Notes: a model not told the origin generated them from the letters alone. A stretch of 64,000 nucleotides of DNA from a virus (IMGVR_UViG_3300036981_000255:34617-98616), one strand, 5' to 3'; shown: positions 17,748 to 58,221, numbered from the stretch's first letter. Program-made: numbers and translations.

Positions 17748-18284
17748 ATGAAAAACCGTAAAATATATCTAAGTGAATCACAAATCAAAGGCTTAAAATC
17801 AATAGGATTGCAAGAAATAATTGATGCAGATGGCTCTCTAATAAGTGGCGATGAAATTTCTAACGAAAAAACCATTAAAACCAACACTATAAAACCCGAT
17901 GGACGACCACAAACATCTGATGATTTTGCTAAAGAAACAGGTAAGCAATCTGACATGTATTTGAATCGTTATGGTTTTTCAATTACAGAAGGTGAAGATG
18001 CGTTGACAGAAGCAGACGACTTTGTATCTAATAATGCAAAACCGAGTGGATTCATGGATAAAAATTCAAAAATCCCTGAAACTACTGAATTATCAAAAAG
18101 TTATAAAAAACCCGATATTCAAAGCTCTTTGAATGATTTGATACGCAAAATAACTCAAAATTCAATTGAAAAGGAATTGCAACAAGATATTAACGCAATT
18201 GTATTGAAAGGGTTGCTATCATCTGTTAATTTTAGTAATATGAAACCACAACACAAAAAAGAAATCCAAAATATGTTAAAATAA
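17748..18284 (+). CDS. Tagged head/internal protein, 178 aa
   Basis: The N-terminus MKNRKIYLSESQIKGLKSIG followed by LQE carries the tag shared by many proteins here ([K]-I-x-L-[NST]-E-x-Q-x). T4 packages internal proteins into the head by N-terminal capsid-targeting sequences cut after L/I-x-E by the prohead protease; GLQE, SITE and ALTE here would be such sites. The rest is hydrophilic and low in structure, ending in helices. Its stop overlaps the next ATG (TAATG), so the two are coupled. I infer a head-core or injected protein; no enzyme motif is present. Confidence 0.65.
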   Translation: MKNRKIYLSESQIKGLKSIGLQEIIDADGSLISGDEISNEKTIKTNTIKPDGRPQTSDDFAKETGKQSDMYLNRYGFSITEGEDALTEADDFVSNNAKPSGFMDKNSKIPETTELSKSYKKPDIQSSLNDLIRKITQNSIEKELQQDINAIVLKGLLSSVNFSNMKPQHKKEIQNMLK

Positions 18285-19291
18285 TGGCAAATAGCGATTT
18301 GGTTGGAAAAATGTGGAAAATTCCAAGTCCATATTTATCAAAATTAAGAGAAAAATTGAACAATCATCAAGGTGATAAACACGTTGAAGGGTACACTCGA
18401 CTTCAAAATCTTTTGCAAAGTGGTAAAATATCTTACGAGAATTTGAAGAATGTGAAACACATTCTGGACAAGAATATAAAAAATGAAACTATCTACGAAT
18501 TAAATGGCGGTAAAGATTTTCACCGATGGATTAACGACCAACTATCAGTTGCAAGAAATAGTATTGAAAGCGGAAAGAAAATTCAGAAAGATGTTGGAAA
18601 TCAGAACGCATACAAGAAACCTCACGAAAAAGATTCAACAAACAAAGGGAAAGTTCGTACAGCAAGACTCGACAAATCTACAAGTTCAAAAGACATTTAT
18701 AACAATAATGTGAACTATGAATCTGTTCAAAGGTCATCTATTAAAATTGTAATATCTGAAAGTCAATATCGTCAACTTTTCCAAGAATCAAATGATATTC
18801 CAATTAGCCCATCAGTTATTAACGAAATATTGAAAGGTTATATTCAAGCTGCGCTATGGCTTGAAAAGGAAAGATTGGAGGAAGATTTTAATTCTATCAT
18901 GGGTTATGACGATGAAGATGACTATGACTATGAAGAATCCGAAGAGACTAATGAACTTCAAAAGTTGATTAAAATGTCAGCAGATATCAATAAAAAATCT
19001 TTTGATAGTTTTATGGCACAGGATATGGATTCAAATTCAAAAATTCAAGCCTATTTGGACATTAAAGATTTTATAAAATCTGCTGGAATGGATGCAATCA
19101 ACGAAGTTTTAGAAACAGACGGAGCAAATGACTTAGGAATGGATATTTGGCTCACAAGAAATCGTCATGGTGCAGGTTTTTTTGACCGAACTTACGACCA
19201 TGAATCGGAATTAATGGATGCAGCTCATAAATTAGGCGAAGTTGACCTATATATTGGGGACGATTTGTTATTATATTTTAGCAATATTTAG
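18284..19291 (+). CDS. Head-type protein fused to an internally tagged cargo, 335 aa
   Basis: Residues 1-150 look like a conserved phage head-associated domain (LQNLLQSGKISYENLKNVKH, YELNGGKDFHRWINDQL). At about residues 151-168 comes IKIVISESQYRQLFQE, the tag that elsewhere is N-terminal. Cutting there would free a C-terminal cargo. The cargo has an acidic stretch (DDEDDYDYEESEE) and ends with WLTRNRHGAGFFDRTYD and LYIGDDLLLYFS, a pattern I know from many uncharacterised phage proteins. An internal tag suggests a polyprotein processed in the prohead. Tag similarity is seen; processing is inferred. Confidence 0.65.
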   Translation: MANSDLVGKMWKIPSPYLSKLREKLNNHQGDKHVEGYTRLQNLLQSGKISYENLKNVKHILDKNIKNETIYELNGGKDFHRWINDQLSVARNSIESGKKIQKDVGNQNAYKKPHEKDSTNKGKVRTARLDKSTSSKDIYNNNVNYESVQRSSIKIVISESQYRQLFQESNDIPISPSVINEILKGYIQAALWLEKERLEEDFNSIMGYDDEDDYDYEESEETNELQKLIKMSADINKKSFDSFMAQDMDSNSKIQAYLDIKDFIKSAGMDAINEVLETDGANDLGMDIWLTRNRHGAGFFDRTYDHESELMDAAHKLGEVDLYIGDDLLLYFSNI

Positions 19292-19294
19292 AAA

Positions 19295-19897
19295 ATGAAA
19301 ATAATATTAACCGAAAATCAATATAATTCACTATTCAACGAAATCTATTTTTCCACTTTCAGTGAAAACCAACAAACGCCAGTAAACTGTGATTGCTGTC
19401 AATATTTTGATTTTGAATCTTTGATGCAATATGGTGGCTTCGAGCATCCCATTTATTATCTTATCAATAAACGTGAGACTAATGACCTTCAATTCATGTC
19501 TCCTGATGATTATATAAAATCCATTGCCAAAGCATCAAACCTTTCGACTTCTGAAATAGTAAATTCAAATGTTGTTTTTCAACAAAAAATAGATAAATAT
19601 GCCGAGTTGATGCGAAACGGCACTAAGTTCCCTATCGGTTTTTATACAATTGGTAAATCTTATCAAGAAGGTCGTCATCGAACCTTGGCAGCAAAACAAA
19701 TTGGTTGTTTATCAATACCTATGGTAAGGATTGTAAAAAATATTTCAACAAAAGATGTTGAGAAAGTCGTAAGAGGTTTGATTGGAAAGTCAAGAGAAGT
19801 GGTCAATCAAATGTATGTCGATAAGGGCTTTAAAGGGATTACAGATTTGGATTGGCGAGAATTAAACAATTATCAAAAATATTACTTAAATCAATAA
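19295..19897 (+). CDS. Tagged ParB/Srx-like protein, 200 aa
   Basis: The N-terminus MKIILTENQYNSLFNE is the shared tag. Near residues 125-145 lies SYQEGRHRTLAAKQIGCLSI, the signature of the ParB/sulfiredoxin fold (G-R-H-R) seen in phage ParB-like nucleases or CTP-binding proteins. The gene follows the previous one after 3 bases. I infer a capsid-packaged, DNA- or nucleotide-acting protein injected with the genome. The catalytic activity cannot be told from sequence alone. Confidence 0.68.
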   Translation: MKIILTENQYNSLFNEIYFSTFSENQQTPVNCDCCQYFDFESLMQYGGFEHPIYYLINKRETNDLQFMSPDDYIKSIAKASNLSTSEIVNSNVVFQQKIDKYAELMRNGTKFPIGFYTIGKSYQEGRHRTLAAKQIGCLSIPMVRIVKNISTKDVEKVVRGLIGKSREVVNQMYVDKGFKGITDLDWRELNNYQKYYLNQ

Positions 19898-19899
19898 AA

Positions 19900-20373
19900 A
19901 TGAAAATATTTCTGAACGAAAGTCAATATAAAGTGTTATTTGAAAATTCTGCAACTAAAACAAAACTCAAAGGTTTAAAACCTATGGGAGTTTATATGAA
20001 AGCAGCATTTGATTCTGGGTATGATGAAGAATCAATGGCAAAAATGCAAATCAATAGATTTTTGAGCCGTCTAACAAATTTGCCAGAAGTTGTAACGTTA
20101 TATCGAGTTGTTTTTGTTGATGATGAATCAAAGATTGACCATGTAAACATTGGTGAACATTATGGTGTCAATGAGCGAAACCTTTTAGCAAGCCATTACA
20201 GACAATCACACGTTGGAGGTGGAAAACCATTCTTGTTAACAGTCAAAGCAGATAGAAATCTTGTGAATTTCCATGAAACTCTTTTGAATAATATCATCTA
20301 TCCACATGAAAACGAGATTACTTTGAAGAACAATGGACGTGGTGCAAATATTGTGAAAATTAAACCGTTGTAA
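19900..20373 (+). CDS. Tagged ADP-ribosyltransferase-like protein, 157 aa
   Basis: The start MKIFLNESQYKVLFE, at an ATG 2 bases after the previous stop, is the tag; the longer upstream reading (from 19852) would bury the tag and is rejected. Downstream are VVTLYRVVFVDD (an Arg as in ART motif 1) and YPHENEITLKN, an E-x-E pair as in arginine-type ADP-ribosyltransferases. The Ser-Thr-Ser motif is not clear. T4 Alt is a packaged and injected ADP-ribosyltransferase with a cleaved N-terminus, which makes the combination meaningful. ART assignment is probable, not proven. Confidence 0.62.
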   Translation: MKIFLNESQYKVLFENSATKTKLKGLKPMGVYMKAAFDSGYDEESMAKMQINRFLSRLTNLPEVVTLYRVVFVDDESKIDHVNIGEHYGVNERNLLASHYRQSHVGGGKPFLLTVKADRNLVNFHETLLNNIIYPHENEITLKNNGRGANIVKIKPL

Positions 20374-20374
20374 A

Positions 20375-21601
20375 TCAACCAATTCTAATATTTAAGTCTA
20401 ACAAAGATTCCATATTAAAATTCAAAAGTTTTTTCACCATATCATCTTGTGATGTTGGAAGTCCGTGGTATGGATGAACATGGTTTGCAATGACGTTCTT
20501 TAGAAGATTCAAAAAATCCACAAGATTATCACCATAAACCATTGGATGTGCAGTAGAGTTGATTTCTAATTGCGTTGCATCATCAATTTGCTTCTCTGGG
20601 TCTGTTAAGTTATAGTTTTTTGCGCTTTTATGTGACAGAAGATTTAATTTTTCTGCCACAAGATTCATCACAGAACCTGCGAATTGGTCATATTCATTGG
20701 CTTTTTTATCTTCTACTTGTTGTTTGACAATCTTTTGATTGTTAGGGAAAATCGTTGGCTCACTTGCAAGTTCTTGCTCGGATGTGTTCAAATTCCATTT
20801 AACGTATGTGCGTTGAAAGTCTTTAATTTTTCTCTTAGTTGCACTAATCAATTCCTCACGACTTGCATAACCTTGATTGAAATTTTCTTCAATAAAATTG
20901 TCAGATAGGCGAATGACTTTAATCATCAGACGATTTTGACTGTCACTTGTGATGTTAATGTTATGGGTCGCAGGAATATTTTCAACCTTTGTGATTGTTT
21001 TGAAAGTCTTTTGATTGGATGCGTTTTCAATTCCATAACGCATTTGAATAAAAACAGGGTCTTTACGATTGAATGAGGTTGGTTTATCCTTTTCATGCTT
21101 ACCTGCTCGAATCAAAACCTCACTATCTTTGAAAATTAAGTCTGTATTTTTACGTCCCTGCAACCCAATTTGGTCTTTGGTGAGATATGTACCTTTAGCA
21201 GTTGGAATTTCTGAAATTGGCGTTCCACGTTCTACCCAACCATCAGACTCGTTAGATGTTGCTGTGTAATAGAATGGGTCAAAGTCAAGATTTTCAATTT
21301 GAGAAATGGTGATAGCAAGATAATAACGCTTCTCTTGATTTGTTGTTTTATCAGCATTATAGATTCTATCTAAGACAACGGCAACTCTTTCCCCAACTTT
21401 AGGAACAAAATGCAAAAATGGGCTTGTTAATGGATAACAAGGTGGCAAATCAGCATTCTCTACCCTTTTGTCAAAGTCTGGAATCCGAACTTTGATTTGT
21501 CTTGTCTCATAAGGGTCTGTAATGTCAACAACTTCACCGAAATATATAATCCTTTCTGAAAGTTGAACATCATTAGGTGAAAAGGAATCTGGTCTGCCCA
21601 T
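20375..21601 (-). CDS. Baseplate hub/spike protein with gp5-like OB fold
   Basis: Residues 15-130 look like the OB-fold domain of gp5/gpV spike proteins (GEVVDITDPYETRQIKVRIP, FLHFVPKVGERVAVVLDR). It continues with a beta segment DQIGLQGRKNTDLIFKDSEV typical of spike shafts, and a C-terminus with NHVHPYHGLPTS, where His residues could bind a metal. No lysozyme domain is present, unlike T4 gp5. It is 408 residues long and convergent with the tagged operon, the stops being 1 base apart. Confidence 0.62.
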   Translation of the reverse strand: MGRPDSFSPNDVQLSERIIYFGEVVDITDPYETRQIKVRIPDFDKRVENADLPPCYPLTSPFLHFVPKVGERVAVVLDRIYNADKTTNQEKRYYLAITISQIENLDFDPFYYTATSNESDGWVERGTPISEIPTAKGTYLTKDQIGLQGRKNTDLIFKDSEVLIRAGKHEKDKPTSFNRKDPVFIQMRYGIENASNQKTFKTITKVENIPATHNINITSDSQNRLMIKVIRLSDNFIEENFNQGYASREELISATKRKIKDFQRTYVKWNLNTSEQELASEPTIFPNNQKIVKQQVEDKKANEYDQFAGSVMNLVAEKLNLLSHKSAKNYNLTDPEKQIDDATQLEINSTAHPMVYGDNLVDFLNLLKNVIANHVHPYHGLPTSQDDMVKKLLNFNMESLLDLNIRIG

Positions 21602-21614
21602 TGTTGTAAATACT

Positions 21615-21830
21615 TTAGTAATAATATCTTAAATCTATCTTCAAACCGTCCAATCTATGAATAAATTCACTTGTCAACAACCGTTCTTTAAAAAAGACTG
21701 TATTTTTAGTGCCATCCTTAAATTTAACAGATGGCACTCTGTTGTCAAATTCTTTTGAAACTTTTTCTATTTCGGCTTCAACTGTTTCGATAGAGATAAA
21801 ACCGAATTTAAGCATTATTTTTTTAAACAT
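21615..21830 (-). CDS. Unknown small protein, 71 aa
   Basis: Starts MFKKIMLKFGFISIETVEAE and ends DGLKIDLRYYY. It has one amphipathic N-terminal helix and no clear motif. It lies 13 bases upstream of the baseplate gene on the same strand and is part of a chain of small genes running to 23141. Function unknown. Confidence 0.5.
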   Translation of the reverse strand: MFKKIMLKFGFISIETVEAEIEKVSKEFDNRVPSVKFKDGTKNTVFFKERLLTSEFIHRLDGLKIDLRYYY

Positions 21831-21850
21831 GACTTATGTTTTTATTTTAG

Positions 21851-22015
21851 CTATTTACTATACTTCCATTTAAGGTATTCTTCACGTGTTTCAAAGCCAT
21901 TATCTTTAGCTTCTTGAACCAGTAATCTGTCTAAGAAATCTCTACATATTAAACTAGCCCTTGGTCTAATCCCAATCGGAAATTGTGGTGTTGGCGGTGT
22001 CACATTTTGTTCCAT
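21851..22015 (-). CDS. Unknown small protein, 54 aa
   Basis: An ATG at 22015 opens a frame reading MEQNVTPPTPQFPIGIRPRA and ending EEYLKWKYSK before a TAG. It fills the gap between two accepted small genes exactly, leaving 5 bases on one side. The proline-rich start and FLDRLL helix look like real protein. Function unknown. Confidence 0.5.
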   Translation of the reverse strand: MEQNVTPPTPQFPIGIRPRASLICRDFLDRLLVQEAKDNGFETREEYLKWKYSK

Positions 22016-22020
22016 AATAA

Positions 22021-22236
22021 TTAATTCAAGTTAGGTTTCAAAATAGCATCAATAGACTTCAAAACGTCTTTTGACCTTTCAACGTTTTCGTTTGATGCGA
22101 AGCCATTATCTACAAATTTTTGTAGATAATTGAGCAGCATTTGTTGTTGGATTTTCCATTCTTCTAATTCTCCGACATTTAGTAGTTGGATTGTCTCATT
22201 TATCTCGTTTGAGATTTCCTCTTCTTCGCTAATCAT
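22021..22236 (-). CDS. Unknown small helical protein, 71 aa
   Basis: Acidic N-terminus (MISEEEEISNEINETIQLL) then helical. Its start overlaps the stop of the upstream gene by 4 bases (ATGA type), a coupled pair. It contains no known motif. Confidence 0.6.
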   Translation of the reverse strand: MISEEEEISNEINETIQLLNVGELEEWKIQQQMLLNYLQKFVDNGFASNENVERSKDVLKSIDAILKPNLN

Positions 22237-22517
22237 AATTGTTTGTTTATTTCATTATATAAAGCTGCTTTTTCTTTGACTTTCGAAATTTCTTCTATTT
22301 CAAACTCATCTGACCCTCCAAATAATGGGTATTTTGTATATAAAATCTTCCCTACTCCGTCTACTACGAATTGGATACTCCCAAGACACATCCCAACAGT
22401 GAAACTCTTAACAGTTTTAAATACGTCATAGATTTTCCCTTGTTTATCATAAGCAATTAAATCTTCACATTTTTCAATGTCTTGTAATTGACCGTTGATT
22501 TCTACTTGTTTTTTCAC
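22233..22517 (-). CDS. Unknown protein, 94 aa
   Basis: Short beta/alpha protein (MKKQVEINGQLQDIEKCEDL ... GMCLGSIQFVVDGVGKILY). It overlaps the next gene by 4 bases. A 50-base element also present at 26925 lies directly upstream and may be its leader or promoter. Confidence 0.6.
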   Translation of the reverse strand: MKKQVEINGQLQDIEKCEDLIAYDKQGKIYDVFKTVKSFTVGMCLGSIQFVVDGVGKILYTKYPLFGGSDEFEIEEISKVKEKAALYNEINKQL

Positions 22518-22528
22518 TTTATTAAAAT

Positions 22529-22600
22529 TTAATGATTAAAAAATAAACCTTTCATAAGATTCTAAAACTAGAACCAAAAGATTTTCAATAAAGTTCCTTT
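22529..22600 (-). repeat. Repeated leader element, copy 1
   Basis: On the minus strand the gap contains AAAGGAACTT, TTGAAAATCT, TGGTT and TAGAATCTTATGAAA in order. The same series occurs at 26925-26995. Both lie just upstream of a gene and contain an ATG in the AATCTTATG context, opening a very short frame (MKGLFFNH here). It could be a promoter or leader-peptide control region. Confidence 0.5.
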
Positions 22601-23141
22601 AGATAAAATCTTTTTCATCGACATAAGAATAATCTATTGATGTTTTTAATTGTGGTAAGCCAACATTTAATGCTGATACAACTCTATGATGACCATCTGT
22701 AACAACCCAAGCATATCTTCCTAAATCATCTTCTGTTATTTTTTCACCACTCAAAAAATATTTAAACCTTTCAATGTCACCTTCATCAATAATGATAGGG
22801 TAGCCTTTTATTGGTGGGAAGTCATGCTCCATCATTTTTAATCTCATTTCATCAGAATATTTTTCTATTTTATCAGATGAAATGGGATTGGCAAAAGCAG
22901 ATATTACATAATCTGGTGAAATCCATCCTCTGTTTTTTAAAGGTTCGTCAAATGTTGGCTCATCAGTTTTTTTCACTAAACTTTTATGTATCCAAGAACC
23001 TTTAGGAAAATTATTATTTTTAAAAAAATATTGGGTATCCGTTTTATCTAAAATCTTACCGTAATTGGTATTATCTCCAATATTTGCGTTTTCGTTCAAA
23101 TATTCTCTTATAGTGGTCGCTACAAACTTTCTTAGTCCCAT
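22599..23141 (-). CDS. ParB-like protein with head-type leader, 180 aa
   Basis: Starts MGLRKFVATTIREYLNE, an amphipathic helix ending in L-x-E, like leaders of T4 head-packaged proteins. The C-terminal part has AWVVTDGHHRVVSALNVGL, the ParB/Srx-type D-G-H-H-R signature. A strong late-promoter motif lies 15 bases upstream. It is inferred to be a packaged, DNA-related effector, like the ParB-like protein at 19295, but with a different leader. Confidence 0.62.
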   Translation of the reverse strand: MGLRKFVATTIREYLNENANIGDNTNYGKILDKTDTQYFFKNNNFPKGSWIHKSLVKKTDEPTFDEPLKNRGWISPDYVISAFANPISSDKIEKYSDEMRLKMMEHDFPPIKGYPIIIDEGDIERFKYFLSGEKITEDDLGRYAWVVTDGHHRVVSALNVGLPQLKTSIDYSYVDEKDFI

Positions 23142-23156
23142 ATTTATTCAATTTAT

Positions 23157-23164
23157 TATAAATA
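23157..23164 (-). promoter_or_regulatory. Putative late promoter upstream of the ParB-like gene
   Basis: The minus strand reads TTCAATATTTATAATAAATT, 15 bases before the ATG at 23141; it is close to the sheath promoter copy. Confidence 0.6.
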
Positions 23165-23169
23165 TTGAA

Positions 23170-23559
23170 CTAACTAATAACACCAGTTCCAGTAGCAAAA
23201 TTAATGGTTGCGCCTTGCACTACAACAGAACCGACAGGACACACCCCTGTGGCTGTTAGCGGAATACCTGCTGGAATTACAATTGTTAATCTAGCGTCTT
23301 CAAGGATAGCTCTGACGATTTCTTCAATACGAATGCGTTCCATTTTTTCTGTAACGCTTTCAGAGCCATCTGGTAAGTTGCCAATAGGCGCACCAGCTTC
23401 TTGTTGCCTTGTGATAATTTTTTTAGCAATGCTTCTTGCAGACAATCCAACACGACTAAAGCCACCACTTAAAATCAAAGGTGGTGGCACAGGAAGGGCT
23501 GACGATGTGTTTGTTGCGATTACCGCTTGTACGATTTGTACTATTTCTTCGGTTGTCAT
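23170..23559 (-). CDS. Unknown, possibly structural, 129 aa
   Basis: Starts MTTEEIVQIVQAVIATNTSS, with a proline stretch (LPVPPPLIL), a helical middle and a hydrophobic beta C-terminus (VVVQGATINFATGTGVIS). The end resembles small virion decoration proteins in style, with no sure family. It overlaps the upstream gene by 4 bases. Confidence 0.55.
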   Translation of the reverse strand: MTTEEIVQIVQAVIATNTSSALPVPPPLILSGGFSRVGLSARSIAKKIITRQQEAGAPIGNLPDGSESVTEKMERIRIEEIVRAILEDARLTIVIPAGIPLTATGVCPVGSVVVQGATINFATGTGVIS

Positions 23560-23906
23560 TGTTTAAATTCGTTTAAAACAGTTTCAATTTTACTTAGATT
23601 TTCGCCAGAAATTGAAGAAGTTTCATCATCACCATTTTCAGATAATACCCTAATCATGCAAAATTTTGCAAAATTTAACTTGTCTTGAGAATTTGATTTT
23701 AAATATGATGATAATTCTTTAAATCTATTGATTAATTCACTGAAAATCATGTCTGTATCTTTGACATTAGCTGGAACTCGCATTGTAAAACTTTGACCGC
23801 CTGTATCGCATAATCGTTTTAATTCTTCCAAAGCCAATTCTATGAGTTCGTTGTTTGTCATATTGACTCGTGCTTCGTCAAAAATTTCTGTTAATGTTTT
23901 TTGCAT
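23556..23906 (-). CDS. Unknown helical protein, 116 aa
   Basis: Helical, acidic protein (MQKTLTEIFDEARVNMTNNE ... INRFKELSSYLKSNSQDK). It is coupled to the gene downstream by a 4-base overlap. No known motif. Confidence 0.6.
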   Translation of the reverse strand: MQKTLTEIFDEARVNMTNNELIELALEELKRLCDTGGQSFTMRVPANVKDTDMIFSELINRFKELSSYLKSNSQDKLNFAKFCMIRVLSENGDDETSSISGENLSKIETVLNEFKQ

Positions 23907-23914
23907 GTTTGTTA

Positions 23915-24052
23915 TTATCTACTAAATTTTTTAGAATTATCTTTCGGATACAATACTTTCATCAATTTCTTCCACTCTTTGTCGGAAATATCTTTTGATG
24001 TTAAACTTGTATCATCAGAATTTGTCAAGTTTTTGTTTTCGTTGTCGGTCAT
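23915..24052 (-). CDS. Unknown small protein, 45 aa
   Basis: ATG at 24052 gives MTDNENKNLTNSDDTSLTSK, then KEWKKLMKVLYPKDNSKKFSR and a stop. It fits between neighbours with gaps of 8 and 5 bases, like the other genes of this chain. Function unknown. Confidence 0.5.
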   Translation of the reverse strand: MTDNENKNLTNSDDTSLTSKDISDKEWKKLMKVLYPKDNSKKFSR

Positions 24053-24057
24053 TATTA

Positions 24058-24462
24058 TTAAATCAGTTTATTTTTTTCCCAATATTTTTTTATTTCTGGT
24101 GATTGCTTTATTGGTGAAGGTTTAATTTTTTCGCCAATAGCATCTTCAATAAATTTATATAAATATGTTGCTAACCCTAATCTTCGATACTCTGGTTGTA
24201 TTCGGATATTATCTAAATACACACCATCAAAATTAGAATCATAATCATTTAACGATGCCGACCCAACTTCACCAACACCATCAACTTCGATGACGAATTT
24301 TTTACTATGGTTAAGTTTCAAAAAATTATAAATCACACCATTAATATTTAACCTTTTCCATATTGAAATCATGTCTAAATCATCTTTATTTAAAGGCATA
24401 GATTCAAAACCTTCACTTATAGTGACATGTAATATTCCGTTTATAAATTTTCTTATGTTCAT
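24058..24462 (-). CDS. GNAT acetyltransferase-like protein, 134 aa
   Basis: Residues 75-110 read GVYLDNIRIQPEYRRLGLAT then YLYKFIEDAIG, the GNAT acetyl-CoA binding pattern (R-x-x-G-[LI]-[AG]). The start MNIRKFINGILHVTISEGFE resembles the head-type leaders here, with I-S-E as a possible prohead protease site. A packaged acetyltransferase that modifies a host protein is possible. The acyl-acceptor is unknown. Confidence 0.65.
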   Translation of the reverse strand: MNIRKFINGILHVTISEGFESMPLNKDDLDMISIWKRLNINGVIYNFLKLNHSKKFVIEVDGVGEVGSASLNDYDSNFDGVYLDNIRIQPEYRRLGLATYLYKFIEDAIGEKIKPSPIKQSPEIKKYWEKNKLI

Positions 24463-24464
24463 AG

Positions 24465-25859: not shown

Positions 25860-25916
25860 TGGTTATTATTTATTTACTACCTGTTGCAAGTTTTGTGTTT
25901 TTAGTGAATAAAATTA

Positions 25917-37626: not shown

Positions 37627-38046
37627 TTAATTGGAAATAGGTTCATTAAAAATAATGTTCCAACCATCTAAATTTTCCCAATCACCATTTAAAGTTAAAA
37701 CCTGTAAATCTTTCGATAATACAGGTTCAAATGAGATATATTCCACCCCTTTATTATTCCGTATTCTTGGAGATAGTGTAAAATTATTATTTTTTTTAAT
37801 TCTTAAAATAACGCTATTGTGTACTCCACCTTTAGAATTTGCGTAATATTTAGCATAATCTAAACTGTTTGTAAAAGAAATAGATGGCATTTTTTCACCA
37901 GTATTATTGGTTTTCATATATCCATCACGTTGAATACCTAATGTTGCGCCCTTGCTTGTTCCATGATAAAGATATACATCTTCAGACTCTTCAATAAACA
38001 TCTTTTGATATTGTTGTTCAGACAATAGGATTTTTTTCTTTTTCAT
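37627..38046 (-). CDS. Tagged ADP-ribosyltransferase-like protein, 139 aa
   Basis: MKKKKILLSEQQYQKMFIEE is the shared tag. After it comes VYLYHGTSKGATLGIQRDGY (the His of an H-x-E type ART/Tpt1 fold), MPSISFTNSLDYAKYYANS and GVEYISFEPVLSKDLQVL with the last Glu. Size and order fit a small ART domain. It lies between two glycosyltransferase genes, suggesting it was dropped into that cluster. I infer capsid packaging and injection. Confidence 0.62.
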   Translation of the reverse strand: MKKKKILLSEQQYQKMFIEESEDVYLYHGTSKGATLGIQRDGYMKTNNTGEKMPSISFTNSLDYAKYYANSKGGVHNSVILRIKKNNNFTLSPRIRNNKGVEYISFEPVLSKDLQVLTLNGDWENLDGWNIIFNEPISN

Positions 38047-48383: not shown

Positions 48384-49064
48384 TTATTTGTAGTATTCGT
48401 CATAAACATCCCAAGTCATTCCATAATCAATCATCACTATTGAATAATTACCATCCCTCTTCACTAAACCATAAGAATCAATTTGAGTTAAGTCGCCAAT
48501 TGGCACATTATATTTTTGAATATACGCAACCAGCATTTTAAACATTTGACTGTTATAAACAGTAGATATTACTTCTTTAGATATTTTTGAAAAATCATTT
48601 GAAAGTTCGTTTGGATAACTTGTAGAAGACTTCAATTTTTTATAATAATAATCTGCAAGTACAATATTAAAAACATCAAATTCAAGCCCAACAATTTTTT
48701 CCCAAACATAATATTCTAGCTTTCTAGCCAATTCCATCTCATTCCATAGGTTGTTTGGGTGTCTATCATATATTTTTGCAAATAAATCATTAAAATCACC
48801 ATCTTGACTTGCCACATATTCAACTTTATTTTGAGCAATTCCTCTTGAATTACTTGCAACTTTTAAACATTTTTCATCGTCAATCTTAAAAACTTCTCTT
48901 GCTGAACCGCCACCAATATGTTTTAAATGGTCATTTGCATAGTTTAACCTTTCATCAAAATCATTCAATGATTTAAAATGTTCCATATCAAAAGCTTCTG
49001 GATAGGCTTCATCCAAAATAAATTCTCTTATGATTTTCCTTAATATGCTCACTTGTAATCCCAT
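48384..49064 (-). CDS. Protein-kinase-like protein with head-type leader, 226 aa
   Basis: After the leader MGLQVSILRKIIREFILDEA come HIGGGSAREVFKIDDEKCLK (glycine loop and likely Lys) and, near the end, YSIVMIDYGMTWDVYDEYY (a D-Y-G in place of D-F-G). The order fits a kinase fold; the H-R-D loop is not clear (QIDSYGLVKRDGN). With its leader it may be packaged in the head and act on host proteins. T7 and T4 phages also use early kinase or ADP-ribosyl modifiers. Confidence 0.55.
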   Translation of the reverse strand: MGLQVSILRKIIREFILDEAYPEAFDMEHFKSLNDFDERLNYANDHLKHIGGGSAREVFKIDDEKCLKVASNSRGIAQNKVEYVASQDGDFNDLFAKIYDRHPNNLWNEMELARKLEYYVWEKIVGLEFDVFNIVLADYYYKKLKSSTSYPNELSNDFSKISKEVISTVYNSQMFKMLVAYIQKYNVPIGDLTQIDSYGLVKRDGNYSIVMIDYGMTWDVYDEYYK

Positions 49065-49397: not shown

Positions 49398-49449
49398 TTT
49401 GACTTTTACTTTTGTTACGGAAAGTCTTCTTTTTTCTGTAGAAATATAC

Positions 49450-49851: not shown

Positions 49852-49852
49852 A

Positions 49853-50209: not shown

Positions 50210-50211
50210 TT

Positions 50212-50652: not shown

Positions 50653-50662
50653 AATTTTTTAT

Positions 50663-50670
50663 TATAAATA
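50663..50670 (-). promoter_or_regulatory. Putative late promoter of the fibre-like gene
   Basis: The minus strand reads TTTCATATTTATAATAAAAA, 10 bases before the ATG at 50652. Confidence 0.55.
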
Positions 50671-50692
50671 TGAAAGAAGTTGTTCTAAATTT

Positions 50693-51511
50693 TTAAATTT
50701 CAATATTCAACAAATTCCAAGCTCTCGCCAATCTTGTCAAACCAATTCCAGCGCCAAAACGTGGAAAGAAATCTAAAGACATGAAATCTTCAAGTTCTTT
50801 TTCGACTCTTTCTTTACCGAACAATTCAAATAATTTGTTTGAATATGCGCCATCCGTAATATTGTAGAATAGATTTTTCATTTCTTCTTTATCACAAGAC
50901 CTTTCAGCAGAACCAATGGTTTCTTGACCATACAAAATAACATCAGCTTTATTGAAAATTCCATTGCCTTTGTGTTTCATATTCCAAAAAGGTGATGTAC
51001 GAATTGGAAATTCTTTCAAAAATACGCAAGTTCCTTTTTCTTTCCACAGGCGACTTTCATGTTCATCTTCAATTGTTTCAATGTTTCCATATTCTGCGCA
51101 AACCTCGTCATAAATCGTGTGAACTGGTTTGTCAAATCCAAGGTATTCTAACAATTCGACTTCTAATGCCACAAGGTCTTCAAAAGTGCCTTTAGATTCA
51201 AATTCAAACATTGGAAATATTTTCTCGTGTCTGCCTTCGATTGGTGTTTGTTCGTTACGATAAGAAGTTGAAATACAGAAAACTCCATCCCACGTAGGAT
51301 TTTTCAAGAGTTCGTACTCTAACCACATTTGACCTGTTTGTGGTAAAGCCCAAGTCAAACCATTATATTCAAATGTTGCAACTGAATGTGGATTCTCACA
51401 AGCTGCAAGAATTGATAATCTGCTTTGTGTCGGAACTTCAATGTAATTTTTGGCGAGAAAGAAAGTTCTCAATTTTTGAACTAATTCGTGGTAAGCTTTT
51501 GTTTGTTTCAT
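50693..51511 (-). CDS. AsnRS/AspRS-like class II synthetase core, 272 aa
   Basis: Motif 2: FCISTSYRNEQTPIEGRHEK and PMFEFES (about residues 80-105). Motif 3: FPRFGAGIGLTRLARAW (about 250-266). The ATP site arginines and the catalytic core of class IIb synthetases are kept, but the N-terminal anticodon-binding domain is missing. Such cores either make asparagine (the archaeal AsnRS-like asparagine synthetase) or modify other molecules. It probably does not charge tRNA by itself. Its role in a phage may be metabolic or a modification of a peptide. Confidence 0.78.
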   Translation of the reverse strand: MKQTKAYHELVQKLRTFFLAKNYIEVPTQSRLSILAACENPHSVATFEYNGLTWALPQTGQMWLEYELLKNPTWDGVFCISTSYRNEQTPIEGRHEKIFPMFEFESKGTFEDLVALEVELLEYLGFDKPVHTIYDEVCAEYGNIETIEDEHESRLWKEKGTCVFLKEFPIRTSPFWNMKHKGNGIFNKADVILYGQETIGSAERSCDKEEMKNLFYNITDGAYSNKLFELFGKERVEKELEDFMSLDFFPRFGAGIGLTRLARAWNLLNIEI

Positions 51512-51521
51512 GTTGTTTTAA

Positions 51522-52304
51522 TTATTTGATTTGTGTAATGTTTTTATTTATATTTATTTCATATATTTTACTAATCTTGTTTAAGGGGATTGACTTAGCT
51601 GTTTTAGCATAACCATCGTTTTTATCAACCCAAAATCCATCGCCATCTACAACTTTCACTTCAATTATGTAATTTGGTTTATTTTCAGTTGGTTTATGTT
51701 TATCTGTTGCGAAAGAAGTTGCATAAGATATTGCAGAATTCGGTGTTTTACTATAAACTGTTAAGCCTTGTTCAACTTCATAACCAATATTCATTTCTTG
51801 ATTTGATTTGATGAATCTGTTAGATTCAATAAATTTCATTTCGGCTGAATTAACACCTCTCCATACAGTGTGTAATAATTCTGGAACTTCATAAAATATG
51901 TAATGTTTGAACCTGTTAGTATTAAATTCCGACTCGTCTGAATATAAAAAGGGATATATGGATTCAGGATATAACTCTTCAATTGTTTCATCTAAATTAC
52001 TCCCGACTACTTTTGAACGAACAATGTTTTTGTCAATATTTCCAACTTCTTCTTGAACGTGTTTTATTTCATTTGACTGAACAATCAATTGGATTTTTTT
52101 GCGAATTTCCTTCTTCTTTTCAATCAGATTTTTTGCTTCATCGGAATTTAGATTTGGACTATCTTGTTCAGTTCTGTTTTTTAATAGATAATCCTTCATC
52201 AATTGATTGACATTTTTAAGTTCTAAATTTAATTTGTCTAACTCAAGATTTTCGTTCTCAAACAGTAAATAGTATTGACCTTCATTCAAGATTATTTTTT
52301 TCAT
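51522..52304 (-). CDS. Tagged ADP-ribosyltransferase-like protein, 260 aa
   Basis: MKKIILNEGQYYLLFE at the start is a near-ideal tag. A helical region follows. The last 120 residues read LLHTVWRGVNSAEMKFIESN, TVYSKTPNSAISYATSFA and NYIIEVKVVDGDGFWVDK, the R-G / S-x-x-x-A / E order of phage ART-like domains. It is in tandem with a second tagged ART-like gene. Injection into the host, as with T4 Alt, is inferred. Confidence 0.58.
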   Translation of the reverse strand: MKKIILNEGQYYLLFENENLELDKLNLELKNVNQLMKDYLLKNRTEQDSPNLNSDEAKNLIEKKKEIRKKIQLIVQSNEIKHVQEEVGNIDKNIVRSKVVGSNLDETIEELYPESIYPFLYSDESEFNTNRFKHYIFYEVPELLHTVWRGVNSAEMKFIESNRFIKSNQEMNIGYEVEQGLTVYSKTPNSAISYATSFATDKHKPTENKPNYIIEVKVVDGDGFWVDKNDGYAKTAKSIPLNKISKIYEININKNITQIK

Positions 52305-52330
52305 TTATCTTAGCAATCCAATTGCTTTAT

Positions 52331-52879
52331 TTAAATTTTTTTATTTGGGTTAATTCTAAATACTGAATTAGGTTGATTATGCCCTTCATCCACCCAAATA
52401 GCGTTTAAGCCTAAATTTTCAGCTATTTTAATTGCCATATCGAAATTCACATCTTCTCTGCCATACCCTCTTGGAAGTGGTTCGTGTCTATATATTTTAT
52501 CAGTATCCACTTTAATTTTAGTCAATTCACTTTCCATTCCAGTTCTTGTAAATTCTAAAGCAAACTCTTTTGAAGGGGAATAAAAATTATTACCTTCATT
52601 GTAACCATGTCCACGATATAAGGTTATTATATTTTCAATATTTTTATCTTCATACTGATAAAATATCCAATCTAAGATAGGAACTGTTGTATATTTAACC
52701 GTCACTCCATCGACTTTAATTGATTTAACATTAGACATTTCTTTAATGTTATCAGTTTTTTTAAAGATATGATTTTGAAACTCTTTCTTCTTTTTTAAAG
52801 TTGAAATAATTTTTTCATCCATATCCGATGCCTGTTCAAATAAATTATCAAATTGTTGTTCGTTGATTAATATTCGCAT
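52331..52879 (-). CDS. Tagged ADP-ribosyltransferase-like protein, 182 aa
   Basis: MRILINEQQFDNLFEQASDM bears the tag (L-F-E site). Then IITLYRGHGYNEGNNFYSPS (Arg motif and a Y-S-P-S Ser motif), followed by EFALEFTRTG, PLPRGYGREDVNFD and NAIWVDEGHNQPNSVFRIN. The order R ... S-x-S ... E suits a small ADP-ribosyltransferase. It starts where the upstream gene stops (shared base), so coupling is likely. Confidence 0.58.
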   Translation of the reverse strand: MRILINEQQFDNLFEQASDMDEKIISTLKKKKEFQNHIFKKTDNIKEMSNVKSIKVDGVTVKYTTVPILDWIFYQYEDKNIENIITLYRGHGYNEGNNFYSPSKEFALEFTRTGMESELTKIKVDTDKIYRHEPLPRGYGREDVNFDMAIKIAENLGLNAIWVDEGHNQPNSVFRINPNKKI

Positions 52880-53391
52880 TATTCAAAATCTAGCTCAAAT
52901 TGTTTGTTGGATTGGACACACGTTATTGTATTCCAAAACGCTTTATAACCAAAAAAAAGTTTATCAGATTCTATTTTTTTAGCGTCATTTGACACTTCAA
53001 AATAAATCAACTTTGTTTCATCTAATCTAATGGCAATAATGTCACCATAAGATATTTGTACATCTAATTTTTTCAAATCATCAATTAAAAAGTGAACTTT
53101 CAAATTACCATACTCTTCGTATCTTACCATACCTTTATCAGCAATATACGTTTCATTAGTAGATGATTCTAATTTGAATAAGGCTGGAATTTCTACAGCT
53201 TCATCGTTGTAAATCTCTTGGTCAAAACCTTCATTGTAAACAGCATTAACTTGAGACTTTTCTTTAATAATTTTGATGAAATAAACCTTTGAATCAATGG
53301 AAGCCATGTGTTCACGAGCCATGCCTAAATAGTATTGGTATTCTTCTTCCGAGAAAAATTTTTGATTTCTATTGACTGGCGATAAATCCAT
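52879..53391 (-). CDS. Neck protein gp14-like candidate, 170 aa
   Basis: KVHFLIDDLKKLDVQISYGD then IIAIRLDETKLIYFEVSNDA is like the section of T4-type neck proteins that states a 'GD' turn and 'YFEV'. The first half NAVYNEGFDQEIYNDEAVEI also suits. It is near the gp13-like gene (55624), its usual partner. The assignment is by pattern and context. Confidence 0.5.
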   Translation of the reverse strand: MDLSPVNRNQKFFSEEEYQYYLGMAREHMASIDSKVYFIKIIKEKSQVNAVYNEGFDQEIYNDEAVEIPALFKLESSTNETYIADKGMVRYEEYGNLKVHFLIDDLKKLDVQISYGDIIAIRLDETKLIYFEVSNDAKKIESDKLFFGYKAFWNTITCVQSNKQFELDFE

Positions 53392-53434
53392 TTGATTTTG
53401 TAGTTTTTTTTCGTTATATTAAAGCAACATTTTC

Positions 53435-53442
53435 TATAAATA
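53435..53442 (-). promoter_or_regulatory. TATTTATA / TATAAATA site between divergent genes
   Basis: The minus strand reads ACTATTTATAGAAAA, the same as at 17680; the plus strand reads TATAAATA, 17 bases before the helicase ATG. It could serve the minus gene at 53391 (44 bases away) or the plus helicase gene. Confidence 0.4.
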
Positions 53443-53459
53443 GTACAAAAAATTTCAAA

Positions 53460-55565
53460 ATGCAACAAGAACTGCCTAGTTTCGACACCAAACAATTTGC
53501 CACTTATGATGGTGAAAACCCATTTATTCTCCAATTGATTGAAAGATTTTCAAATGATATAAATTTTAATCTAACGATGTTTGAAAATGAATATCTTGTG
53601 AATAATTTCAAATATAGTGGTTATGGATTTCCAAGGATGCAAATCAATGTTGGTTCTGCCACTGAAAAGCGGATTCAAAAAGAATTTGCTTTAGATAGAG
53701 CAGTTCCTCATGTTTACGTTGATACATTAATTGGCGAAACGGAAGAATGGTATCACACGAGTTGTCGAACACAAAAAGGATTAGTTTATTTTTGGCTGTT
53801 TAAAGTCGAAATTGGCAACCTTTATGAACTTGTGTACACTCATAACAGTCAAATTGATTTTGAAGCCTTGAATGCCCAATTTAACGGTAAAAATCTTATG
53901 ACTCATCAAGAAAGAGCCGTTGATTTTTTGGCATATCATAAGAGATGTTTTTTATTGGATACTGCTGGCAATGGGAAAACTTATTCGTCCATTGCTGCTG
54001 CTATTGCAACCGATTGTCAAAAGATTCTTATTGTATGTCTAAGCGGTTTGAAAAAGAATTGGTCTTTGGAATTGAAAGAATGGTCTGAAACAGCTAAAGT
54101 GATAAGCGGAGAAAATAATTGGTCTGATACACCTTCAAGATTCACAATCATTAATTTCGACATTTTAGCCAACTACCATCAAAAAGGCAAAGGCAAAACA
54201 AGTCTTTTATTAGCAGAAAAATTCGATTGCATTATCGTTGACGAAATACAAAAAATTCGTAAAACAACTTCACAACGAAGTAAAGTGATAGCGGATTTGT
54301 GCGCTTCACAATCAGTTAAATACGTCTGGGGACTTTCAGGGACACCAATTGCAAAAAATGAAGAATTTTTAAACCTTTGTATGAATCTAAACATCAGTAT
54401 CAGCGATTTAATTTACACTCCGAAACATTATCACTATTTGGAATATTCAGTCAAAAATGCCGATTTTATTGAAAGATACTGTTATGGGTTAAGACCAAAA
54501 GGTAATCGTACTTTTTGGGTTAAAGGTAAAAAGGTTGATGGAATAATGCAACATAATAGTAACACCCACGAATTACATCAAAGAACCAAACATTTACAAT
54601 TAAGAAGGCGTACAGAAAATTCAGTCGAAGGATTTCCAGATAAAACAAGAGACAAACTTTGGACTACTTTCACATCAAAAGAACAACAAGAATATAATGA
54701 ACTTTTTGACAATTACTTACAAGTTAAAGGTTTGAATGATGAAGTTGACAAATTGTTTGCATTGAAAATGAAAGAGTTGAAAACAATATTTACAGAAAAT
54801 CAAAAATTCTACGACTTTGAAAAGTATGTCTTTAGATGTGTAAATGACCTCAATAAAATAAAAGACCAAACGACTAGATTTAATGATTCACATGAAAATA
54901 TTGTAAAATCTTATGCCGATAATACGTTGGCAAAGATTGAAAAGATTATAGCCAATTACCGAGAACATATAATTAAATGTGAAAAGTTAGAAAAGGAAGA
55001 AAAAATTGACCAAATAACTAAATTTGAAGTAAAAATACCAAAAGACATTGAGAAAAATCGAGTGTTGATTGAAACAATACTCCTACGTCAATATCTAGCA
55101 ATCAAGAAAGTACCCCACACTGTCAAATTTGTTAAAGATGAAATTGAAGACGGAAACAATGTGATAATTTTTACACATTTCATTGAAGAATTTAATCTTT
55201 TGGCTGCTAATTTTAAATCAAATGGTGTTATGGTTCGTGGTGGGTCAACAGAAAAAAAACAAGCAGCAGTTGACGAATTTATGACGAACCCTAAGAAGAA
55301 TGTTATCATTGGAAATATAACAACACTTGGCACAGGGTTTAATATCACAAAAGCAGATGTTGTTATGTTCAATAGTCCTAATTGGGATGGTAGTGAACAT
55401 GAGCAAGCAGAAAAAAGAGCGTGGCGCATCGGACGTAAAGAATTAGTCAAATGTTATTATCATTTGTTCGATGGTTCAATTGAAGAACGTGTTTTTGACA
55501 TTTCTGAAAATAAAAAGACCAATTCTGAAATTTTCTTAGGCGATGAGAAGTCTACCCCTATTTGA
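53460..55565 (+). CDS. SNF2/UvsW-like DNA helicase, 701 aa
   Basis: Superfamily 2 helicase: LMTHQERAVDFLAYH (Q motif), FLLDTAGNGKTYSS (Walker A near residue 170), CIIVDEIQKIRKTTSQRSKV (DEIQ, motif II, near 260), VWGLSGTPIAKNEEFLN (motif III), and a C-terminal half with VVMFNSPNWDGSEHEQAEKR and RIGRKELVKCYYH (motif VI). The T4 analogue UvsW remodels forks and late recombination intermediates. It is on the plus strand, divergent from the gene at 53391. Confidence 0.82.
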   Translation: MQQELPSFDTKQFATYDGENPFILQLIERFSNDINFNLTMFENEYLVNNFKYSGYGFPRMQINVGSATEKRIQKEFALDRAVPHVYVDTLIGETEEWYHTSCRTQKGLVYFWLFKVEIGNLYELVYTHNSQIDFEALNAQFNGKNLMTHQERAVDFLAYHKRCFLLDTAGNGKTYSSIAAAIATDCQKILIVCLSGLKKNWSLELKEWSETAKVISGENNWSDTPSRFTIINFDILANYHQKGKGKTSLLLAEKFDCIIVDEIQKIRKTTSQRSKVIADLCASQSVKYVWGLSGTPIAKNEEFLNLCMNLNISISDLIYTPKHYHYLEYSVKNADFIERYCYGLRPKGNRTFWVKGKKVDGIMQHNSNTHELHQRTKHLQLRRRTENSVEGFPDKTRDKLWTTFTSKEQQEYNELFDNYLQVKGLNDEVDKLFALKMKELKTIFTENQKFYDFEKYVFRCVNDLNKIKDQTTRFNDSHENIVKSYADNTLAKIEKIIANYREHIIKCEKLEKEEKIDQITKFEVKIPKDIEKNRVLIETILLRQYLAIKKVPHTVKFVKDEIEDGNNVIIFTHFIEEFNLLAANFKSNGVMVRGGSTEKKQAAVDEFMTNPKKNVIIGNITTLGTGFNITKADVVMFNSPNWDGSEHEQAEKRAWRIGRKELVKCYYHLFDGSIEERVFDISENKKTNSEIFLGDEKSTPI

Positions 55566-55603
55566 TATTTGTTTATCTATTTGGCACAATGCAAACATTG
55601 TGC

Positions 55604-55611
55604 TATTTATA
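55604..55611 (+). promoter_or_regulatory. Putative late promoter, plus strand, of the neck gene
   Basis: The coding strand reads GTGCTATTTATATAGAAAAC, 12 bases before the ATG at 55624. Confidence 0.55.
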
Positions 55612-55623
55612 TAGAAAACATTT

Positions 55624-56778
55624 ATGGCAACAACAAATAATCCTTCAGACTGCATCAACAACGAAGAAAAACAGTGTCTTATACAAGATGTTGGAAACCT
55701 TTTAACTGCTGGCATTACCAAACTTGAAATAAGTAGTGCAGCTTGGTGTACGTTTTTAAAATTTGCAGTCGAAGAATATGTAACGCAAATTCAAATGTGG
55801 TTGATTGATAATCAATGGTCATCACTGAATGGCAAAGACGTTACAAAAAATGACATTTGTTTTGCATTAACTCAAAGGTCTATTGACGCTGAACTTCAAT
55901 TTTCTTATGCTTATAGCAAACAAGTGGGTTTGCAATCTCGTGGCAATTATGAATTAAAGAAAGATTACATCATCATTGAAGAAGGTACACAAGTTTATGA
56001 GATTCCAAGAGGTCGAGAAATAAATTCAGTCTTATGGCTCACACCTTCTGATATTGACCATGCGACTTTTTCAAGTCTTGGTTATGGTACAAACCTAAAT
56101 GGAACTGGTGTTGGTGGGTATTCTGGCTTCGGTTATGGTGGAGGTTTAGGTGCAATCAATGGCGCATATTATATAGCTCCTGCTTATGATATTGTTTTAA
56201 GGGCTGCGGATTTTGGATTGAAGAACCGAATTTTAAAATCAGATTTGACTTATAAAATAACAGCAGGGGCAAATGGCACAAGACTTCTTCACTTGTTTTC
56301 TATTCCAAATCATGGGAATGAAATAGGAATTCGTAAGAATTTGTATAAGTGTAAGGTCTGGTATCATTATTACGACACCGAAGATTTGACAGCAGAAGAC
56401 AAAAATAAATGTCTTGAGACTTGTAAAGACATTATAAAATTTCCATCAGACGTTCCACTTCCAAAGACTGATTTTTGTGATTTGAATGAGCCTAGTAAAG
56501 TTTGGGTTCGTAAATTTCTGACGGCTTATGCTAAAGAAGCTCTTGGAAGAGCAAGAGGTAAGTTTAAAGGTGAATTACCATTTCCAGACTCAAATGCAAA
56601 CATGGATTACGAATCACTTTTAGCGGAAGGGAAAGAAGAAAAGGAAAATCTTATTGAAGAACTTAAAACTTGGCTTGAAGGAATGCGAAGTGATAAACAA
56701 TTAGAAAGAAGAGCAGGTGAAGCTGAAAATCTAAATACGATTTTAAGTAAAGTACCTAGTGGTTTTTGGGTAAAATAG
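55624..56778 (+). CDS. 13: Neck protein gp13-like, 384 aa
   Basis: Residues 110-140 read YIIIEEGTQVYEIPRGREIN. Then a Gly-rich loop (GYSGFGYGGGLGAINGAYYI) and DLTYKITAGANGTRLLHLFS follow. The C-terminal third has KEALGRARGKFKGELPFPDS and DYESLLAEGKEEKENLIEEL, the end typical of gp13 neck proteins (T4: a complex with gp14 that closes the head). It is about 25% longer than T4 gp13 (309). A promoter motif precedes it. Confidence 0.72.
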   Translation: MATTNNPSDCINNEEKQCLIQDVGNLLTAGITKLEISSAAWCTFLKFAVEEYVTQIQMWLIDNQWSSLNGKDVTKNDICFALTQRSIDAELQFSYAYSKQVGLQSRGNYELKKDYIIIEEGTQVYEIPRGREINSVLWLTPSDIDHATFSSLGYGTNLNGTGVGGYSGFGYGGGLGAINGAYYIAPAYDIVLRAADFGLKNRILKSDLTYKITAGANGTRLLHLFSIPNHGNEIGIRKNLYKCKVWYHYYDTEDLTAEDKNKCLETCKDIIKFPSDVPLPKTDFCDLNEPSKVWVRKFLTAYAKEALGRARGKFKGELPFPDSNANMDYESLLAEGKEEKENLIEELKTWLEGMRSDKQLERRAGEAENLNTILSKVPSGFWVK

Positions 56779-56784
56779 AGCAAC

Positions 56785-57405
56785 ATGAAAAGAAGAATAT
56801 TAATTAACGAAAATCAATACAATTTTTTATTTGAATCTGATGATTTTGAATTAAAAATCAATACACTTATTAATAGTGGACAATTAGAAAATATAGAACT
56901 TGCGTTTCAACTTATTGAGGGGATGAATTTAGATAAAGAAAAATTCTTTAGCCATTTTCAAGAAACTTTCGATTTTCTTAAACATCATGATAAGATTTCT
57001 GCAAATCCTCTGGATGAAATGACACCTCAAAGTCTTTATGAAATTTTAAATTTAGAAAATTTAGGGTTTCTACAAGACAAATTAATTGAAGGCGTACCTG
57101 AATTATGGTTGCCAAATTTATTCACTCTATACATCGAATTATCCGACCCAAAAACATTACCAAAATTTAGTCATACACCCAAATTAAATACACTTATATT
57201 AAGCAATAACGAACTGGACACAATACCTTTTTGGGATATTCAATCCTTGAAATTTTTATCCGTAGCTAACAATAATTTGTCCGATGTTTCAGTGTTTAAA
57301 AAATTAACAAATTTAACTGAATTAGATGTGTCAAAAAACTATTTTAAACATTCTCAAGCAATAGAGTTACAACAAATGTTACCCAATACTATAATCAGAT
57401 TCTAA
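56785..57405 (+). CDS. Tagged leucine-rich-repeat protein, 206 aa
   Basis: MKRRILINENQYNFLFESDD is the tag. A region like the Bacteroidota LRR opening (LINSGQLENIELAFQLIEGM) follows. Repeats are short: LNTLILSNNELDTIPFWD, LKFLSVANNNLSDVSVFK and LTELDVSKN. A protein-binding effector, packed in the head and injected, is a likely reading. It is 6 bases after the neck gene. Confidence 0.68.
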   Translation: MKRRILINENQYNFLFESDDFELKINTLINSGQLENIELAFQLIEGMNLDKEKFFSHFQETFDFLKHHDKISANPLDEMTPQSLYEILNLENLGFLQDKLIEGVPELWLPNLFTLYIELSDPKTLPKFSHTPKLNTLILSNNELDTIPFWDIQSLKFLSVANNNLSDVSVFKKLTNLTELDVSKNYFKHSQAIELQQMLPNTIIRF

Positions 57406-58221
57406 ATGAAAAAACAAATTATATTAAACGAAAATCAATATAGAGTTTTATTTGAATCTGATGATTTTTCACTTCAATTAAAGAACTTGAAAAAATTACT
57501 TGAATCAGGTCAAGAAGAAAATATTGAACTTGCATTTCAACTTGGTGAAGGAATGGAATCTTATGTGCCAAATTTTAATATGGGCAGATATATATTGAGT
57601 AATTATGGAACTCTTATTAAAATGATTTTAGGTTATATGCCAAAAGGTAATGTAGGAACTTGGCACAATGAAGAAATTTACACTTACGTTGTAAAATCTT
57701 TTATTATGTTATTTAGCTCAAAAGAATTAAAATTGTTTAGAAAAGGTTTAACAAAATTTCCAGACGATATATCAAAATTACAACATATTGAATTATTAGA
57801 TTTAAGTGACAATCAATTGACATTCTTGCCAGAATCAATTGGATTATTAAAAAATTTAAGTCGTTTAAATTTAAGTGATAATAAAATATCTGAACTACCA
57901 AGCTCAATGAAAAATATGAGCAATTTGAGAGCAATTTCTTTATCCAATAATGAAATGTACCAGTTACCAAAAAATCTATTGGAATTTACACAGTTGGAAT
58001 TTTTGGATATATCATATAATAATTTTTTACACCTACCACAAGATATTGACAAATTGGCTAATTTAGAAATACTTTTTGCCAATGATAATAAACTGTCAAC
58101 AATTCCACACTCTTTATCTAATATCAAATCTTGGACACTTCTAGATTTTAAGTATAATCACATACTACCATCCGAACAACGTGAATTGCAACAATTATTT
58201 AAAGTTAAAATTGATTTTTAA
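57406..58221 (+). CDS. Tagged leucine-rich-repeat protein, 271 aa
   Basis: MKKQIILNENQYRVLFESDD is the tag, and the first 50 residues resemble those of the gene directly upstream, so the pair is a tandem duplication followed by divergence. Repeats at about residues 120-255: IELLDLSDNQLTFLPESIG, LSRLNLSDNKISELPSSM, LRAISLSNNEMYQLPKNL. The two genes abut without a gap. Same role as the neighbour is inferred. Confidence 0.7.
   Translation: MKKQIILNENQYRVLFESDDFSLQLKNLKKLLESGQEENIELAFQLGEGMESYVPNFNMGRYILSNYGTLIKMILGYMPKGNVGTWHNEEIYTYVVKSFIMLFSSKELKLFRKGLTKFPDDISKLQHIELLDLSDNQLTFLPESIGLLKNLSRLNLSDNKISELPSSMKNMSNLRAISLSNNEMYQLPKNLLEFTQLEFLDISYNNFLHLPQDIDKLANLEILFANDNKLSTIPHSLSNIKSWTLLDFKYNHILPSEQRELQQLFKVKIDF

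Follow-up and report, generated by a model that had tools for sequence, protein, structure and literature searches.

A leader shared by unrelated proteins of a T4-like phage is a probable capsid-targeting signal

In bacteriophage T4, the protein Alt and the internal proteins (IPs) are injected (PMC9026906, PMC12373910); a capsid-targeting sequence (CTS) of ten residues is sufficient for targeting, the protease gp21 cleaves after L/I-X-E, and both ends of Alt are processed (PMC9026906). Here we analyzed a linear virus record of 98,616 bases (IMGVR_UViG_3300036981_000255, referred to here as G000), bases 34617-98616 of which make up the window, that is, the whole stretch of 64,000 nucleotides under study. 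Nine proteins encoded in the window carry nearly the same short stretch, which we call the tag and which an original prediction took to be a capsid-targeting signal for a set of effectors. We consider it likely that the tag serves as a T4-type capsid-targeting propeptide.

The tag resembles the CTS of T4 IPI-IPIII and Alt in being a short, modular N-terminal leader common to unrelated proteins and ending in L/I-x-E. As in T4, relatives of G000 possess gp21 (Peptidase_S77), a gp20 portal and a gp23 whose propeptide ends in L/I-x-E, and some cargo with weak similarity to ADP-ribosyltransferases (ARTs) may recall Alt, which is a packaged ART. The differences lie in the leader sequence itself, MKIII[TN]ExQYxxLxE, and in scale: whereas T4 has Alt and three IPs, one 292-kb relative has about 45 predicted cargo genes, mostly uncharacterised, and several leader families occur together. 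In phiKZ, 201phi2-1 and SPN3US, too, a gp21-like protease cleaves many head or ejection proteins behind a Glu, but no common targeting leader was found described for those phages, and the phiKZ motif is S/A-X-E (PMC9026906). In P1, N-terminal residues route the anti-restriction protein DarB into the capsid (PMC9024508), although the Dar proteins have neither a common consensus leader nor a separate scaffold system. Phage polyvalent proteins have similar cargo domains (ART-PolyVal, ParB-like, GNAT), for which packaging and injection were predicted (PMC5512222); polyvalent proteins, however, hold many domains in one chain, while here small cargo domains stand behind an address leader. Head maturation of the HK97 type also differs, Peptidase_S78 being found in 0/19 tag-bearing records tested. 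The original prediction knew of no description of the motif, and in open-access full text we too found none, either of the motif or of the multi-leader expansion. Judged by its sequences, the system is probably a new, much expanded variant of T4 capsid targeting.

Tag copies and their distribution

The tag was confirmed in all nine proteins at the positions originally proposed. Eight copies are N-terminal, and the ninth, in the gene starting at 18284, is internal, as had already been marked. An 18-column profile built from the nine scored 25-34 bits on exactly these nine open reading frames (ORFs) across six frames of the whole record, with the next ORF at 4.5 bits and a maximum of 4.9 in reversed sequence. 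Since this comparison is circular, the profile was rebuilt exclusively from 141 tags found in other genomes, and this version recovered 8/9 window tags at 13.8-23.3 bits (next, 5.7; reversed, 4.9), missing only 17748. By profile in six frames, no tag copy was present in the 34.6 kb of the record outside the window.

The weak variant at 17748 (KIYLSESQIKGLKSIGLQE) departs from the pattern originally given for the motif when this is applied strictly, since it has Y in the [ILVF] slot and lacks the final F. This variant, MKNRKIYLSESQIKGLKSIGLQE/ (17748..17816, plus strand, gene 17748-18284; slashes mark the predicted cut), ends in L-Q-E. The internal copy, KIVISESQYRQLFQE (18743..18787, plus strand, gene 18284-19291; 18.9 bits with the external profile), lies around residue 154 of 335 with no Met close by. 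The other tags recovered by the external profile are MKIILTENQYNSLFNE (19295..19342, gene 19295-19897) and MKIFLNESQYKVLFE/ (19900..19944, gene 19900-20373) on the plus strand; MKKKKILLSEQQYQKMFIE (37990..38046, gene 37627-38046), MKKIILNEGQYYLLFE/ (52257..52304, gene 51522-52304) and MRILINEQQFDNLFE/ (52835..52879, gene 52331-52879) on the minus strand, these three genes being named, as originally, by their 3' ends; and MKRRILINENQYNFLFE/ (56785..56835, gene 56785-57405) and MKKQIILNENQYRVLFE/ (57406..57456, gene 57406-58221), again on the plus strand.

Searches of related phage genomes, which had been proposed as a check, returned the tag on many unrelated phage proteins. A degenerate DNA pattern of the tag hit 48 stretches among 2.9 million viral contigs, and 52/52 of the matches were in frame, 1-3 codons past an ATG, in many unrelated proteins. 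Applied to bacterial and archaeal genomes (257 Gb), the same pattern gave 51 matches, 0/51 of which were an N-terminal tag; nearly all were one recurring short Alphaproteobacterial stretch in a frame of about 23 codons. Equal occurrence in non-phage proteins, named in the original prediction as a ground for rejection, was thus not what we observed. A start-anchored protein core pattern matched 163 times in 1.5 Mb and 0 times in the reversed sequence, and a looser DNA pattern reached at least 120 viral stretches. Searching isolates by tblastn with the short tag peptides gave no match, a result which does not imply absence as the query was probably too short.

Two adjoining genes of LR756508.1, a 484-kb uncultured phage (L165:2423-2937), start with MRLKESQLRNVIRQEIQNALTE and MKVSADTLRKIIKEETRDLLNE, and leaders of this form therefore reach other huge phages. 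Tag-like stretches were also seen at the C-terminal end of ORFs (G001:2515-3030 and G006:108571-108720; KKIIVTEEQFRFIQKNKI and NIIITEAQLEKLLEKLKK), which recalls T4 Alt, the C-terminus of which is also processed.

Leader ends, leader exchange and head genes

Tags that had not been selected for the motif were examined for [LI]xE within 12 residues after the core. It was present in 22/30 unrelated proteins, compared with 8/87 downstream segments (p 5e-11) and 270/1215 untagged proteins (p 7e-9). In a second sample, 33/42 unrelated proteins and 16/166 downstream segments had it, and Glu occupied position +6 in 18/42 (background, 8%). The propeptide of gp23 in these phages ends in LINE/A, LLNE/S, ILNE/Q, LILE/Q, IVSE/A or LLDE/A, aligned with the FLTE/A column of T4, and the start of T4 Alt, MELITE, resembles the tag core.

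The leader is also exchanged between otherwise similar proteins. In L041, MKIIISESQYKILNE/QLGNFGDIRN, and in L032, MTNRTIIKQILNQFLTE/QLGNFGDIRN, the following proteins are ~90% identical; their DNA shows similarity only from the Glu codon on, the upstream sequences being unrelated. A KCWSGY protein (83%) is preceded by this tag in L044 and in G003 by MGKIIKLTEGDLIKLIKRVLEEGEITE. Four different leaders, in L228, L202, G005 and G008, occur in front of one and the same domain (..ETEGIDxFL..), and a DHH-like protein is also found with several. In the swap alignments, the [LI]-x-E of both leaders lies at the junction or within a few residues of it, which is why we place the mature end after the second Glu. 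It is after this second Glu (LFE/, LNE/, LTE/), rather than the invariant first one, that the mature protein would most likely begin. The first Glu, despite being the most conserved, was rejected as the only cut site because swap junctions and variable linkers begin after the second; the inner [LI]-[NST]-E is possibly an extra site. The exchanges suggest that swapped leaders do the same job and would be functionally equivalent.

At least five leader families were recognized, of which the tag is one. In the 292-kb relative (G006), N-terminal 30-mers formed 267 similar pairs, compared with 21 and 13 for internal segments, 46/336 genes fitted one of six leader patterns, and the leader genes were clustered, with 20 adjacent pairs against a shuffled mean of 6.2. 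Aligned with MAFFT, 74 leader proteins from G006 and G005 gave the consensus MKxxIxTE...ILxE, with one Glu conserved in at least 90%. In the window, three minus-strand genes have candidate leaders by form only: MGLRKFVATTIREYLNE/, of another type (22599..23141), MNIRKFINGILHVTISE/ on a GNAT acetyltransferase (24058..24462) and MGLQVSILRKIIREFILDE/ (48384..49064). The cultured Flavobacterium phage immuto (vB_FspM_immuto, NC_055915; L012-L015), which infects Flavobacterium sp. LMO8, encodes gp21 and gp23. It has repeated leaders of its own, MENFDLKKFLVENKLTxNSKxL..E on gp003, gp076 and gp092, with a similar one on gp077, and MKKQILSEQF[RK]RMQxLAGIITE on gp083 and gp230, and is the best cultured candidate at hand for virion proteomics of leader-bearing phages. 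The cyanophages P-SSM2 and S-SCSM1 offer no such proteomic test, since their KCWSGY-domain relatives are without this leader.

The heptamer TATTTAT occurs directionally, at most 40 bases upstream of the starts of leader and head genes (G006 L073-L087, G005, G003, G008 and G001). It precedes 84 genes in G006, compared with 24 for its reverse complement, and is commoner before leader genes (55/116 versus 163/636, p 6e-6). The T4 late promoter has the consensus TATAAATA, to the core of which TATTTAT is the reverse complement; the heptamer is possibly the late promoter of this clade.

Five tag-bearing records of the first sample have both Peptidase_S77 and gp23, as do two portal relatives, G001 (itself tagged) and G024. 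In the second sample, chosen by the tag alone, Peptidase_S77 was found in 9/9 gp23-bearing records, and 6/6 tag records of at least 250 kb had both genes, whereas 0/14 control genomes had either. A prohead protease gene elsewhere in the same genome, which the original prediction had asked for, did not turn up: searching the 98.6-kb record G000 for gp21 (PF03420) and gp23 found neither. G000 is probably a fragment, being linear and shorter than its relatives, and because it is incomplete and without gp21, we infer its protease from those relatives, which have it.

G000 belongs among distant T4-like phages, since its portal (13920..15866, minus strand) is T4 gp20-like (PHROG 213, E 4e-50); this portal is 39% identical to that of immuto across 58% of its length. 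The tail sheath protein (9225..12458, minus strand; PHROG 23, E 5e-37) and the tube are of T4 type, and the annotated portal, sheath and tube are all without the tag. The hosts of these large T4-like phages are probably Bacteroidota. In the nearest relative, the gene for the prohead protease (L072:1318-3174, corresponding to G001:38390-40246) has an intein with a LAGLIDADG-like domain inserted beside the DHP motif. A 269-kb record, G037 (the record behind L227), has two copies each of gp21 and gp23 about 200 kb apart, so that the record has two head clusters or else is a chimera of the assembly.

Cargo proteins

What follows the tag differs from protein to protein, as originally noted. Among the domain labels then given, leucine-rich repeats (LRRs) held and were confirmed by Pfam in 56785 (E 8e-9) and 57406 (E 9e-19), while ART and ParB were weakly supported or without a library match. 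The protein of 37627 matched ART-PolyVal below threshold (E 0.017), and in 51522, 28% of the protein (mature region 147-218) matched a phage 'large polyvalent protein' (3e-5), an indirect link to ART. Library scans gave no supporting match for ART in 19900 and 52331 or for ParB in 19295. AlphaFold models made without alignment reached a pLDDT of 45 (51522) and 35 (37627), homologues being wanting, and were discarded. Among viral contigs, no relatives of 19295, 51522 or 52331 were found. For 19900, part of the mature region is related to a protein with another leader (L189; 39%, 114 amino acids), and relatives of 57406 in L063 are in some cases tagged and in others untagged.

The 74 aligned leader proteins (G006 and G005) were scanned against Pfam and PHROG: most showed no known domain, and the few hits were lysozyme-like, LysM, pterin dehydratase or kinase-like. 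The leader-bearing protein L074:91-1671 (G006), which has various leaders in different phages, weakly matched DHH phosphoesterase (Pfam E 0.001); loci with this protein are also L194, L201, L044, L023, L028, L187, L254 and L185. In the proposed set of effectors, several of the cargo proteins are candidates.

Competing explanations and meaning

The capsid-targeting reading draws on the N-terminal position, the restriction to phages, the linkage to gp21 and gp23, the L/I-x-E end and the leader swaps. Several observations nevertheless weigh against it. A virion location of the tagged proteins is predicted indirectly, and the tag core could not be aligned by eye to the T4 IP leader, the general form alone being common, so that any shared ancestry would be conjectural. 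About one fifth to one quarter of the tags have no [LI]xE nearby, and the second site of 19295 and of 18284, where the tag is moreover internal, is F-x-E. Neither gp21 nor gp23 was found in several long tag contigs, whether or not these are fragments, in many shorter ones or in one of 214 kb, and the incomplete G000 holds neither.

Four other explanations were considered. The phage has more than one sorting signal in use, as genes with secretion signals of ordinary appearance are found in the same genomes, and the leader could in principle direct proteins to the membrane, a replication compartment, the tail or the baseplate, with L/I-x-E being the signal of another protease or left uncut. We regard this as improbable, given that the tag's association with gp21/gp23 is perfect among gp23-bearing records, that the gp23 propeptide ends in the same [LI]-x-E, and that the leaders have no hydrophobic secretion-type stretch while portal, sheath and tube are untagged. 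It is less probable still that the tag is a helix start or an interaction motif acting in the infected cell, such as a dock for a phage protein, on cargo that is never packaged. The [NST]-E-x-Q may resemble an N-capping box at the start of a helix, with an amphipathic turn after it, and the internal copy at 18743 would suit this idea, which does not, however, predict homology that starts exactly after L/I-x-E or interchange with unrelated leaders.

Similarity at the level of DNA or RNA, through an element acting in translation initiation or through a recombination hot spot by which 5' ends are copied between genes, the peptide itself having no role, would agree with the clustering of leader genes, the TATTTAT upstream of many of them and the somewhat excessive use of ATA for Ile in the tags. 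Apart from ATA, the choice of synonymous codons in the tags is roughly that seen across the genome, while the Glu, Gln and hydrophobic residues themselves are retained, which argues for conservation at the peptide level; on these grounds a nucleic acid signal was rejected. As leaders unlike in sequence and alike in their L/I-x-E end also replace each other, we consider this explanation very unlikely. A count of synonymous to non-synonymous codons in leader and mature parts (102:89 versus 261:312) is partly circular, the tags having been picked by residue, and was not used. Finally, short motifs in AT-rich genomes invite over-reading of low-complexity N-termini, and yet chance is refuted for practical purposes by the 0 matches in reversed sequence, the clear score gap and the 0 N-terminal tags in the cellular genomes.

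Under the capsid-targeting reading, a leader of about 15 residues, M-K-I-I-[IL]-[TNS]-E-x-Q-[YF]-x-x-[LI]-x-E, would bind the prohead core (scaffold) during head assembly and carry the attached protein into the prohead. A gp21-type (S77) protease would then trim it after the final Glu (L/I-x-E/), and possibly after the inner [LI]-[NST]-E too, freeing the mature protein within the head for delivery along with the DNA. Scaffold binding, cleavage, presence in the virion, injection and a role against host functions are all drawn by analogy. The tag would be one of several interchangeable leader families, and leader recombination would let a gene gain or lose cargo status. We lean, by a small measure, towards the broader proposal that large T4-like phages run a general 'postal' system, in which families of leaders ending in L/I-x-E load dozens of proteins per phage as an injected arsenal, with cargo recruited by leader recombination. 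Separate leader families may address separate core proteins or positions.

If this is true, the leader would be a readable label that predicts from sequence which of hundreds of uncharacterised genes in large environmental phages have products that enter with the DNA as infection begins, and the content of the phage head and the early anti-defence cargo would become directly testable. Should the DHH-like cargo be a phosphodiesterase that is injected, its effect on defences that use nucleotide signals would merit a test, and the natural leader pairs may serve the study of protein loading into phage heads.

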